A stretch of DNA of 64,000 bases from Armatimonadota bacterium (GTDB taxonomy: Bacteria > Sysuimicrobiota > Sysuimicrobiia > Sysuimicrobiales > Humicultoraceae). The notes under the pieces are model-generated. The model saw only the letters and a list, made by a program, of their open reading frames with translations, was not told the DNA's origin and did no database searches. Position numbers and translations under genes: made by a program. Every line of letters starts with the position of its first letter. Position 1 is the stretch's first letter. The DNA is taken from positions 1-64,000 of the forward strand of contig JAVHLY010000008.1 of the NCBI GenBank assembly GCA_031081585.1, in the 5' to 3' direction. This document shows positions 18,117 through 56,818 of this stretch, one piece after another.

Positions 18117-18145
18117 TTGACATGGTGCTACATCTTGTGATAGGA
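18117..18145 (+). promoter_or_regulatory. Promoter of the nrdAB leader
   Basis: A perfect TTGACA at 18117-18122 is followed after 16-17 bases by GATAGG/ATAGGA near 18139-18145, a poor -10 box. The downstream riboswitch and NrdR-like boxes support transcription starting near 18150. Confidence 0.55.
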
Positions 18146-18172
18146 AGTCTCTGCGGACACAAGATGTAGATG
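18125..18172. promoter_or_regulatory. Pair of putative NrdR boxes overlapping the nrdAB promoter
   Basis: Two 16-base sites contain CTACATCTTG (core 18128-18137) and CAAGATGTAG (core 18160-18169). Each matches the known NrdR core CwAtATaTwG at 8 of 10 positions, and they are exact reverse complements. Core centres are 32 bases apart, the three-helical-turn spacing usual for paired NrdR boxes. The first box lies between the -35 and -10 elements and the second just behind the expected start site, suited to repression when dATP is plentiful. Alternatively the arms could form one hairpin, but no U-tract follows. Confidence 0.65.
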
Positions 18173-18348: not shown

Positions 18349-18411
18349 TGAACAATCCGCGTGCCCTCGTGGAGTGGGGCGGAGCGGAGACAGGTTCCCA
18401 GGCCGTCCTGG

Positions 18412-18462
18412 GGCCGCCTCCGTCTATCGCACGCAGGGCCGTGGTTGAGGACGGAGGTGGCC
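18412..18462 (+). promoter_or_regulatory. Hairpin sequestering the nrdA ribosome-binding site
   Basis: GGCCGCCTCCGTC (18412-18424) is complementary over 13 bases, with one G-U pair, to GACGGAGGTGGCC (18450-18462), which contains the nrdA Shine-Dalgarno GGAGG (18453-18457). No U-tract is present, so the riboswitch probably controls translation initiation. Confidence 0.75.
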
Positions 18463-18465
18463 GAA

Positions 18466-20814
18466 GTGGCGACCCTGGTTGGTTTGCCGCACTGGCTGGA
18501 ACGGCTTGCCCGCCCAATCCCCGGCGGCACGCGTCTGCTGAACAGCCTCCGTGACGACCCCGCGGTCCGCGGCAGCGGGGAAAGTGAGCTCGAACTGGCC
18601 CTGCTTCAGGCCAGCCAGGGCCGGATTCACCAGGACCCCGGTTACGAGCGCCTCGCGGCAAGGTTGATGCTGCGCCGGCTGTACCGGGAAGCCCTGGGGA
18701 CCCCCGAACCCGACCCTGACGCCTACCGCGCCGGTTTCTGCCGGTACGTGCCGCAGGCCGCGAGCGCCGGGGCCCTGGACGAACGACTGCTCCGGTTCGA
18801 CCTCCAGGGCCTGAGCCGGGTCCTGCGGCCCGAACGGGACCTGTGGCTGCCCCTGATCGGGGTGTCTACCCTTGCGGACCGGTACCTCGTCCGGGACCCC
18901 GAAACCCGCAGGCTGCTGGAAGTCCCGCAGTTCCTGTTCATGCGAGTCGCCATGGGGATGAGCCTCGTTGAGCGCGATCCCGCGACATGGGCGGAGGCCT
19001 TCTACGACGCCATGAGTCGACTGGACTATCTGCCCAGCACCCCCACCCTGTTCAACGCGGGCACTCCTCACCACCAGCTCAGCAGCTGCTACGTGTCGGA
19101 TGTGCTGGACAGCATGCACCACATCCTCCAGTCCTGCGAGGAGTTCGGGAAGGTCGCCAAGTACGCCGGCGGCCTCGGGGCCTCCGTCACCAAACTGCGC
19201 GCCGCGGGTGCTCCGGTCCGCGGCATCAACGGCACCAGCTCCGGCATCATTCCCTTCATCCACCTCTTCGACTCGCTCATCAGAGCCGTCAGCCAGGGAG
19301 GGCGTCGCCGCGGCACCCTCGCCGTGTACCTGGAGCCCTGGCACCTCGAGATCCGGGCCTTCCTGGACCTCAAGCGGAACGCCGGCGACCCGTACCTGCG
19401 GGCCCACAGCCTGAACACCGCGCTGTGGGTCCCGGACGAATTCCTCCTCCGGGTGGAGCGGGACGACGAGTGGTACCTCTTCGACCCTGCGTACACGCCG
19501 GAGCTCCCCGACCTGTGGGGCGAGGCCTTCTCCCGGGCCTACCGCTGCCGAATCGAGGAAGCCCGGGCCGGCCGCATCCCGCCGCGCGCATTCCGCGTCG
19601 AGAGCGCCCGGTCCCTGTTCCGGGAGATCCTGGCCACACTGCAGGAGACCAGCCACCCCTGGGTCGCCTTCAAGGACGCCAGCAACGTACGCAGCATGCT
19701 GCCGGGGGTGATCCACTCCAGCAACCTCTGCACCGAGATCCACCTGCCGACCAGCGAGGAAGAGATGGCTGTGTGCAACCTCGCCAGCGTCAACCTGGCA
19801 CGTCACGTGACCTCCGGGGGGCTGGATTGGCATCGCCTCCGCCGCACCGTGCGGCTCGCCATCCGGGGCCTGGACAACGTGATCGACCTGAACCTCTACC
19901 CCACAGCACGCGCATCCCGCGGGAACCTGCGCCACCGGCCCGTGGGACTGGGCCTGATGGGGCTCGCGGAGGTCTTCGCACGGCTGGGCATGCGCTACGG
20001 TGACGAAGCCTCCTGCGAGTGCACCGACCGCGCAGTGGAGTTCCTGAGCTTCTGCGCCATCGAGGCCAGCTGCCAGCTGGCCACAGCACGCGGGCCCTTC
20101 CCCTCGTTCCCCGACAGCCGCTGGGCCCGGGGTGAGGTGCCCATCGACACCCTTCAGGAGCTGGCCGAACTCCGTGGCGGACCTGTCGTGGATCGCTCGG
20201 GGCGTCTGCACTGGGACGCCCTCCGCCACCGGGTGCGTCAGGGCATCCGGAACGGGACGGTCCTCGCCATCGCGCCCACCGCCACCATCAGCCTGGTCGC
20301 CGGGACCACCCCTGGCATCGATCCCTGCTACGCGAACCTCTTCGCCCGCCAGACGCTGTCCGGGAAGTTCCTGGAATTCAACCGCGTGCTCGTGGAGCAG
20401 TTGCAGTCGCTGGGTCTGTGGGATCGGGTGCGCGCGCAGCTGGTCGAGGAGCGGGGGGATCTGGAGCGCATCGAGCAGATCCCGCAGGCCCTGCGCCACG
20501 TTCACCGCACCGCTTACCAGATCCCTCCCGAGGACTTCGTCCGGGTCGCCGCCCTGGCCCAGAAGTGGGTGGACCAGGGAGTCAGCCGCAACCTGTTCGT
20601 GCGGGATCGCTCCCTGGACGCCATGGCGCGCCTGTACCTGGAAGCGTGGCGGGCCGGCCTCAAGTCCACCTACTACCTGTTCACCGCTCCCCGCATGTAC
20701 GCGGAGCCCAGTACCGTCCACGTCAACAAGGCCCGCGAGCGGCTCCGCTGGAACCTGGAACTTCCCGAACACGCGATCAGCTGCGCACCGGGCTGTGAGT
20801 CCTGTGCCGGCTGA
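18466..20814 (+). CDS. nrdA: Ribonucleoside-diphosphate reductase, class I large subunit
   Basis: Catalytic subunit reducing ribonucleotides to deoxyribonucleotides by radical chemistry, 782 residues. Expected class I residues are visible: the redox Cys in QLSSCYVSD, the N-x-C-x-E active-site block in SSNLCTEIHLP, the partner Cys in MAVCNLASVNL, paired radical-transfer tyrosines in KSTYYLFTAP, and a C-terminal Cys pair in CAPGCESCAG for re-reduction by thioredoxin-like proteins. I see no convincing ATP-cone at the N-terminus, so activity regulation may be absent or located elsewhere. GTG 18466 lies 8 bases behind GGAGG. nrdB follows after 11 bases. Regulation is by the upstream NrdR-like boxes and AdoCbl riboswitch. 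Confidence 0.95.
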   Translation: MATLVGLPHWLERLARPIPGGTRLLNSLRDDPAVRGSGESELELALLQASQGRIHQDPGYERLAARLMLRRLYREALGTPEPDPDAYRAGFCRYVPQAASAGALDERLLRFDLQGLSRVLRPERDLWLPLIGVSTLADRYLVRDPETRRLLEVPQFLFMRVAMGMSLVERDPATWAEAFYDAMSRLDYLPSTPTLFNAGTPHHQLSSCYVSDVLDSMHHILQSCEEFGKVAKYAGGLGASVTKLRAAGAPVRGINGTSSGIIPFIHLFDSLIRAVSQGGRRRGTLAVYLEPWHLEIRAFLDLKRNAGDPYLRAHSLNTALWVPDEFLLRVERDDEWYLFDPAYTPELPDLWGEAFSRAYRCRIEEARAGRIPPRAFRVESARSLFREILATLQETSHPWVAFKDASNVRSMLPGVIHSSNLCTEIHLPTSEEEMAVCNLASVNLARHVTSGGLDWHRLRRTVRLAIRGLDNVIDLNLYPTARASRGNLRHRPVGLGLMGLAEVFARLGMRYGDEASCECTDRAVEFLSFCAIEASCQLATARGPFPSFPDSRWARGEVPIDTLQELAELRGGPVVDRSGRLHWDALRHRVRQGIRNGTVLAIAPTATISLVAGTTPGIDPCYANLFARQTLSGKFLEFNRVLVEQLQSLGLWDRVRAQLVEERGDLERIEQIPQALRHVHRTAYQIPPEDFVRVAALAQKWVDQGVSRNLFVRDRSLDAMARLYLEAWRAGLKSTYYLFTAPRMYAEPSTVHVNKARERLRWNLELPEHAISCAPGCESCAG

Positions 20815-20825
20815 GCAGGTGGACC

Positions 20826-21818
20826 ATGCGGCCTCTGGTTGGCGGGAATCCCCTCGAGCCTGTCCAGCTCGTGCCCCTCAGCTACCCCTGGGCGTACGCG
20901 CACGCCCAGCAGGGCAAGCGCAACACCTGGTTTCCCGAGGAGGTCCCCCTGGCCGAGGATGTCCGCGACTGGGAGACCCGTCTGTCCCCGGACGAACAGC
21001 GCGCCGTGGAGCTCCTCCTGGGCTTCTTCAACCCCATGGAGTCCCTGGTGACCCACAACCTCGTCCTCGCCATCTACCGCCACGTCACCGCTCCCGAAGC
21101 GCGTCTGTACCTGGCCCGGCAAATCTGGGAGGAGGCCAACCACACCATGGCCTTCGAGTACGTGCTCAAGACCCTTCCCGTAGAGCGCGAACGGGTCTTC
21201 AACGCCCACCGGAACGAGCCGGCCGTCCGGGCCAAGGAGGAGTTCCTGGTGGACCTGTCCCGGACCATGCTGGACCCGCTGGATTTGTCCCGGGTCTCCC
21301 ACCGGCGCAGCTTCCTGCGGAACCTGGTGGGCTACTACATCATCCTGGAGGGCGTCTTCTTCTACGGCGGGTTCCTGTTCGCCTACACCTTCCGTCGCCG
21401 CAACCTCCTCCGTGGGCTCGCCACCATCGTGGACTGGACCCTCAAGGACGAGAGCCTGCACCTGAGCTTCGGCATCCACCTGATCGGGGAACTCCTCGCC
21501 CAGGACCCCGACCTGATGACGCCCGGGCTGGGTCGGGAGCTCCTGCACCTCATCCTGACGGCGGTGGACCTCGAACGGGACTACAACCGGGCGCTGCTCC
21601 AGCGGCCTGTCCTGGGGGTCAGCGCGGAGGTTCTGAACGCCTATGTGGAGTACATCACCGACCGCCGGCTGGAGGAGCTGGGCCTGCCGGCCTCGTTCCA
21701 CACCCCCAACCCTGCGCCCTGGATGGCCACGGAGGTGGACGTGCCGGAAATCGTCAACTTCTTCGAGGCCCGGAACATCCACTACGAGGTCGCGGCCCCG
21801 CGCGACGTCGAGGGCTGA
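20826..21818 (+). CDS. nrdB: Ribonucleotide reductase small subunit, class Ic type (no radical tyrosine)
   Basis: Ferritin-like subunit of 330 residues that generates the oxidant for NrdA. Metal ligands can be aligned with E. coli and Chlamydia trachomatis R2: Glu72, Glu103, His106, Glu175, Glu209 and His212. The position of the E. coli radical Tyr122 is Phe110 (EEANHTMAF) and the position of Asp84 is Glu72 (NPMES). Phe together with Glu at these places is the signature of class Ic RNR, which stores the oxidising equivalent in a Mn(IV)/Fe(III) centre instead of a tyrosyl radical. Ligand spacings (31, 3, 72, 34, 3) agree within one residue with the C. trachomatis protein. ATG 20826 lies behind GAGCAGGTGGACC. 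Confidence 0.93.
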   Translation: MRPLVGGNPLEPVQLVPLSYPWAYAHAQQGKRNTWFPEEVPLAEDVRDWETRLSPDEQRAVELLLGFFNPMESLVTHNLVLAIYRHVTAPEARLYLARQIWEEANHTMAFEYVLKTLPVERERVFNAHRNEPAVRAKEEFLVDLSRTMLDPLDLSRVSHRRSFLRNLVGYYIILEGVFFYGGFLFAYTFRRRNLLRGLATIVDWTLKDESLHLSFGIHLIGELLAQDPDLMTPGLGRELLHLILTAVDLERDYNRALLQRPVLGVSAEVLNAYVEYITDRRLEELGLPASFHTPNPAPWMATEVDVPEIVNFFEARNIHYEVAAPRDVEG

Positions 21819-21885: not shown

Positions 21886-21907
21886 AAGGACGGGACAACT
21901 GCATAGC

Positions 21908-22002
21908 CATCCGGGGAGCTCGACGAGGCGGGCTGAGAGGGCGTTCCGATGACAACGCCGACCCGTTGCACCCGATCCAGGTAATGCTGGCGTGGGGAGA
22001 GG
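21908..22002 (+). promoter_or_regulatory. TPP riboswitch (THI element)
   Basis: Contains the two diagnostic segments: GGGCTGAGAGGG, which binds the pyrimidine of TPP, and ACCCGATCCAGGTAATGC followed by TGGCGTGGGGAG, which binds the pyrophosphate side. It directly precedes a terminator and the thiW-cytX-thiM-thiE-thiD genes. Confidence 0.95.
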
Positions 22003-22005
22003 CAG

Positions 22006-22036
22006 GCCGCCAGTAGCGCGTGGACTGGCGGCTTTT
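22006..22036 (+). terminator. Intrinsic terminator of the TPP riboswitch
   Basis: Perfect 9-pair stem GCCGCCAGT/ACTGGCGGC with a 9-base loop, followed by TTTTGCTT. It lies between the aptamer and thiW, so TPP binding most likely causes premature termination. Confidence 0.88.
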
Positions 22037-56723: not shown

Positions 56724-56818
56724 TGGCGGAGGGCCGTGGGAGTCGAACCCACCGGAGACTCCACGAGCCTCCCACCGGTTTTGAAGACCGGGGCCCGCAC
56801 CGGCGGACGCTGCCCTCC
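56724..56818 (-). tRNA. selC: tRNA-Sec (selenocysteine, anticodon TCA)
   Basis: The leftward strand folds as the unusual selenocysteine tRNA: long acceptor GGAGGGC/GGCCCTCC, an extended D-arm (CCGCCGGTGCGGG), anticodon stem CCGGT/ACCGG with loop CTTCAAA (anticodon TCA), a long variable arm, T-arm GTGGG/CCCAC with TTCGACT, discriminator G and encoded CCA. A -10-like TAGTAT lies at 56829-56834 about 10 bases upstream. selB and selA on the same strand further upstream confirm the identification. Confidence 0.95.

Follow-up and report, generated by a model that had tools for sequence, protein, structure and literature searches.

Class Ic-type nrdAB genes and their protein signature

The window analysed here, a stretch of 64,000 nucleotides of contig JAVHLY010000008.1, carries an nrdAB gene pair for a class I ribonucleotide reductase behind a leader with a cobalamin riboswitch (Table 1). 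The small-subunit gene is intact and is the sole PF00268 gene in the host genome. NrdB matches Pfam Ribonuc_red_sm (7.6e-75) and passes the NrdB family model in a profile search with 321.9 bits against a cut-off of 237. The catalytic-subunit gene ends 11 bp upstream of nrdB and encodes the active-site motifs SSCY, NLCTE and CNLASVNL, a tyrosine pair YY and a C-terminal CESC. The first start of the open reading frame call, GTG 18361, is located at the hairpin right after the riboswitch, so nrdA is unlikely to begin there. GTG 18466, behind GGAGG, is the likelier start. Pfam searches found no ATP-cone in NrdA or in NrdB, and the only ATP-cone match of the host genome is NrdR. The ATP-cone motif of NrdA is also absent in Thermoflexus and same-order relatives, and is present in Actinotalea and its kin.

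Table 1. Features of the nrdAB locus, in window coordinates
Feature	Position	Strand	Details
Putative nrdAB promoter, -35-like hexamer TTGACA	18117..18122	+	putative, from sequence
Putative NrdR box 1, GTGCTACATCTTGTGA	18125..18140	.	half of 12-bp inverted repeat
Putative NrdR box 2, ACACAAGATGTAGATG	18157..18172	.	half of 12-bp inverted repeat
Cobalamin riboswitch aptamer, RF00174	18161..18359	+	109.4 bits, gathering score 31.5, E = 1.7e-26
Hairpin just 3' of aptamer, GCCCTCGTGGAGTGGGGC	18363..18380	+	near-identical in G018, G021 and G033
Anti-Shine-Dalgarno arm, GCCGCCTCCGTC	18413..18424	+	predicted pairing with 18450-18460
Shine-Dalgarno arm, GACGGAGGTGG	18450..18460	+	ribosome-binding site GGAGG; predicted pairing with 18413-18424
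nrdA, class I catalytic subunit	18466..20814	+	782 aa from GTG 18466; PF02867 (1.3e-164) and PF00317
nrdB, class Ic-type radical-generating subunit	20826..21818	+	intact open reading frame, ATG start, 330 aa
nrdB codon 72	21039..21041	+	GAG = Glu; aligned with Chlamydia E89; most Tyr enzymes have Asp
nrdB codon 110	21153..21155	+	TTC = Phe; aligned with Chlamydia F127; class Ia/Ib enzymes have Tyr
nrdB codon 204	21435..21437	+	Trp; the class Ic enzymes of Chlamydia and Saccharopolyspora have Tyr here (Tyr222)

Glu72 and Phe110 are encoded exactly where the preliminary description had placed them. The residues E72, E103, H106, F110, E175, E209 and H212 align with E89, E120, H123, F127, E193, E227 and H230 of C. 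trachomatis, and the five ligands besides Glu72 (E103, H106, E175, E209, H212) are all present. The accompanying claim that the ligands keep the Chlamydia spacings held for 31, 3, 4, 34 and 3 residues and failed for E103-E175, which is one residue shorter (72 vs 73). The radical-transfer residues W35, D208 and the C-terminal Y320 have counterparts in W51, D226 and Y338 of the Chlamydia enzyme.

The solved structures closest to NrdB are both class Ic enzymes, namely the Chlamydia Mn/Fe NrdB (1syy, 8e-92) followed by the R2 of Saccharopolyspora erythraea (6y2n, 1e-70). The AlphaFold model (pLDDT 83) fits the Chlamydia Mn/Fe enzyme 4d8g best (TM 0.88, 1.8 A), well ahead of Tyr-type enzymes. The C. 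trachomatis protein (1syy/4d8f/4m1i) is thus of the same fold and shares 45% identity in the alignment, the Glu/Phe pair and the six metal ligands. The window differs from that system by Trp for Tyr222, an NrdA lacking the ATP-cone, the B12 riboswitch and the presence of class II enzymes. The S. erythraea R2 shares Glu/Phe but is 38% identical, belongs to another clade whose members include Tyr enzymes, and retains Tyr where Chlamydia has Tyr222. The signature, the closest structures and the tree together make a class Ic-type R2 the best reading of the NrdB sequence.

Glu at the first ligand is not diagnostic alone because class Id carries the same Asp-to-Glu change there (PMC6754362). The class Id enzymes of Leeuwenhoekiella, Facklamia and Flavobacterium, which use manganese and a metal-stored oxidant, resemble the proposed state of NrdB and have Glu as first ligand, but they keep Tyr at the radical position and are distant in sequence. 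A class Id identity for NrdB was ruled out by Phe110 and by scores of about 1e-13 against class Id structures.

The nrdAB leader and its counterparts in relatives

The putative promoter has a weak -10 element (GATAGG, 18139-18144). A CTTGACA box lies at the equivalent place in four relatives of the same order (G018, G021, G033 and G036) and at locus L016. The two putative NrdR boxes contain a 12-bp inverted repeat (18128-18139 and 18158-18169), precede the cobalamin riboswitch and overlap its start. Their centres are 32 bp apart, about three helix turns, a spacing described for NrdR box pairs (PMC9110341). Scored with a self-made consensus and not a published profile, the pair reached 25, and none of 120 random stretches exceeded 19. 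The spacing is 32 bp in G018, G021, G033 and L016, and 31 bp in L025. NrdR binding would probably add nucleotide-sensing repression of transcription.

The RF00174 match is full length (model positions 1-189) and lies directly upstream of nrdA. The hairpin following the aptamer is probably the kissing-loop (P13/L13) element expected for this riboswitch class. Further downstream, the Shine-Dalgarno arm has a predicted probability of 0.005 of being unpaired, compared to a median of 0.21 in shuffled leaders, with one of 100 shuffles as low. The hairpin at the ribosome-binding site is unusual relative to shuffles (1-4%) in the window, G021 and G033, and shows no excess over shuffles in the G018 and Thermoflexus leaders. 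Conservation of a sequestering hairpin across all relatives was not supported by the latter results. In the nrdA leader of G036 (L066), a GC hairpin followed by TTTTTT after the cobalamin aptamer looks terminator-like by eye. The exact switch is thus not conserved, given the unremarkable hairpin in G018 and Thermoflexus and the terminator-like element in G036. A TPP riboswitch at 21902-22015 on the forward strand lies between nrdB and a ThiW-like transporter gene with apparent thiamine genes. It was set aside as a candidate for nrd control, being downstream of nrdB and ahead of the transporter gene.

The association of the cobalamin riboswitch with class Ic genes extends beyond the window. The riboswitch is present at each of the five class Ic loci found in the order (the host, G018, G021, G033 and G036), as it is at loci of ZCTH02-B6, RSA5 and Thermoflexus (L015, L016, L018-L021, L023) and of Actinotalea (L025, L029). 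Riboswitch-bearing genomes show a further large-subunit match, which is only a fragment in G033. In the eight genomes read, this further large subunit has the class II NPC[G/S]E motif and a zinc-ribbon tail. No cobalamin riboswitch was detected at the related actinomycete loci L026 and L027, and their genomes yielded one large-subunit gene each and no class II gene. Because the draft genomes are related, the co-occurrence of riboswitch and class II genes is a pattern that falls short of statistical proof, and the joint absence concerns two related draft genomes. In G024 of the same order, a class Id-like NrdB gene with Glu and Tyr (C22:109989-110888; L013, L068; best PDB matches 6sf4/5olk, about 5e-89) has a weak match to the cobalamin riboswitch ahead of it (34 bits).

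The arrangement has a precedent in Streptomyces coelicolor, whose class Ia nrdABS operon is under B12 riboswitch control (PMC4991794). As in the host, the class I operon is located behind a B12 riboswitch and NrdR boxes, and class II is encoded in an nrdR-nrdJ operon (PMC4991794, PMC9110341). NrdB of the S. coelicolor nrdABS kind (L080, L109-L112) has Asp/Tyr, unlike the window protein, and is therefore a tyrosyl-radical enzyme and not a Mn/Fe enzyme. A Nonomuraea relative of this class Ia type has the riboswitch too. The open literature, which is incompletely covered, yielded no paper joining class Ic with a B12 riboswitch. What appears to be new here is a Mn/Fe-type enzyme, as judged from its sequence, in the B12-gated role already known for the class Ia enzyme of S. 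coelicolor.

Phylogeny and probable cofactor of NrdB

Close homologues of NrdB (64-83% identical) occur in Thermoflexus, in other genomes of the order and in records labelled Bacillota, and all have Glu and Phe. The pair is kept in the more distant homologues of Actinotalea and its kin (45-49% identical), and the signature is not a chance match. Among 52 aligned R2 sequences, Asp always occurs with Tyr. Glu is combined with Phe in 30 rows and with Leu in 2, and the lone row with Glu and Tyr is class Id-like. The two sequences with Leu at the radical position, L118 and L119 of the Actinomycetota genomes G176 and G154, constitute a second tyrosine-free type. In the R2 tree, built with the trait columns removed from a small sample with long branches, the window NrdB falls inside a 20-row group in which every row has Glu and Phe. 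The sister group of its clade is a Chloroflexota clade. Tyr enzymes are interleaved with Glu/Phe rows, monophyly of all Glu/Phe rows was rejected in the sampled tree (AU p = 0.022), and no group free of Tyr enzymes united NrdB with the Chlamydia class Ic protein. The cofactor can therefore not be inferred from ancestry alone. Class Ic is defined by its cofactor and not by descent, so the failed clade test is a caution and not an exclusion. Given the small and long-branched sample, the interleaving is consistent with repeated gain or loss of the cofactor state, and it bears on whether class Ic arose repeatedly.

The equation of Phe plus Glu with class Ic in the preliminary description hence needs qualification. 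It is backed by the nearest structures and the position in the tree, and weakened by the occurrence of Glu in class Id and by the scatter of Glu/Phe rows over more than one clade. The phylogenetic check proposed at the same time placed the window protein in an all-Glu/Phe group, which excludes a Tyr enzyme with an error at Phe110.

In the groups of the window protein, of Thermoflexus and of Actinotalea, every aligned row has Trp204. Tyr222 of Chlamydia is the site of electron entry during cofactor activation. At this relay position the clade has naturally exchanged Tyr for Trp, and its Mn/Fe cofactor may be assembled through an electron relay unlike that of Chlamydia.

The most likely oxidant of NrdB is a metal-stored Mn(IV)/Fe(III) state, which would form from Mn(II)/Fe(II) and O2, because there is no radical tyrosine (Phe110) and the metal site is all Glu/His. 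An unlikely alternative is that NrdB works in vivo with Fe/Fe or Mn/Mn, so that the signature would only indicate the lack of a tyrosyl radical. Such a pairing could be favoured by Trp204 altering cofactor assembly relative to the studied class Ic enzymes with Tyr222. It would also fit the Glu of dimanganese class Id enzymes (PMC6754362) and a scaffold prone to mismetallation (PMC8463856). However, the seven cofactor-site residues are those of Chlamydia, whose enzyme is the closest solved relative, and the class Id enzymes, which retain Tyr, match much less well (6sf4, 1.4e-13). R2lox, a Mn/Fe oxidase and not a reductase subunit, likewise combines Glu at the first ligand with a Mn/Fe site, and NCBIfam R2lox models match weakly. 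The chance of such an identity is negligible, since the best R2lox match reaches 69.8 bits where 194 are required and NrdB models do pass, and since nrdA is present in full 11 bp upstream and Tyr320 is available for radical transfer. The partner gene and the sub-cut-off score ruled R2lox out. Just as improbable is that codon 110 of a class Ia gene was misread in sequencing or assembly. The assembly is a draft of 66 contigs, but Phe110 and Glu72 recur in every close homologue from independent assemblies, and Phe fixed in the whole clade excludes the error.

Distribution and proposed role of nrdAB

The order is probably that of Sysuimicrobiota (CSP1-3), a phylum with a single class and a single order (PMC11604079), which fits the kinship of the genomes compared. 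A class I small subunit is encoded in six of 43 genomes of the order and in none of the 10 other genomes of the host's own family. Together with the Chloroflexota sister clade, this scarcity suggests horizontal transfer of nrdAB. Genes of class II type are found in nearly all of the 43 genomes.

Statements on the host genome rest on family searches of its 66-contig draft. Contigs C7 and C42 each carry one class II nrdJ gene (TIGR02504, 699 and 535 bits, cut-off 400), and the family search returned no match for class III NrdD. The nrdJ gene on C42 follows nrdR in an nrdR-nrdJ operon with an NrdR-like box, ACACAAGATCTTGTGG. The corrin-synthesis marker CbiC/CobH, one marker family searched in draft genomes, had no match in any of the 43 genomes of the order, host included. 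The absence suggests that members of the order are unable to make the corrin ring. The one other cobalamin riboswitch of the host precedes a TonB-dependent receptor gene, which plausibly encodes a B12 importer.

We suggest, with a probability of about 0.78, that nrdAB encodes a Mn/Fe class Ic-type reductase behind a cobalamin riboswitch, made as a backup when B12 is short. In B12-replete cells, the class II enzymes would supply deoxynucleotides and the riboswitch would keep nrdAB off. Adenosylcobalamin, when present, would leave the ribosome-binding site in the hairpin (18413-18460), shutting off nrdA translation. Under B12 scarcity, class II enzymes would fail and the class Ic enzyme would be made. 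The oxidant would then be relayed along W35-D208 and Y320, near the C-terminus, to NrdA, where it would reach the tyrosine pair and the active-site cysteine. The preliminary description had the organism making its deoxynucleotides by a metal-stored oxidant. Two class II reductases and the cobalamin riboswitch ahead of nrdAB argue against that general statement and make a conditional backup more likely.

Class Ic might instead serve as the main aerobic reductase, with class II used only without oxygen and the riboswitch merely tuning the level. The order, if it is Sysuimicrobiota, is thought to be facultatively anaerobic (PMC11604079), and class I needs O2, which would fit such a division of labour. 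We regard it as improbable, since class I is present in six of 43 genomes and class II-type genes in nearly all, and since class II enzymes do not need oxygen yet tolerate it.

The backup role would give a testable reason for owning a class Ic enzyme by tying a Mn/Fe reductase to vitamin B12 control. A cobalt-dependent route to DNA precursors would be swapped for a manganese/iron route when B12 fails. The proteins also add Mn/Fe-type enzymes outside Chlamydia, from free-living and partly thermophilic bacteria. A broader proposal for the order, to which we give somewhat less than an even chance, is that two subclasses of manganese-using class I enzymes, class Ic and the class Id-like type of G024, have each been put under a B12 riboswitch as stand-ins for class II in cells unable to make B12. 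It further holds that iron-tyrosyl class I is absent from the order, and that the Trp204 clade perhaps uses a relay different from that of Chlamydia.

Several minor features were seen alongside. Upstream of one nrdJ on C7 of the host (L095) lies a radical-SAM-like gene that, judged by eye, has an apparent intein ending ...SYLVNGVAVAN|C. Inteins also seem to be present in some nrdJ frames of Thermoflexus (1560-1763 aa). Elsewhere in the window, a selenocysteine tRNA is located at 56728-56818 on the reverse strand (RF01852, 78.7 bits), and selenoproteins are probably made.
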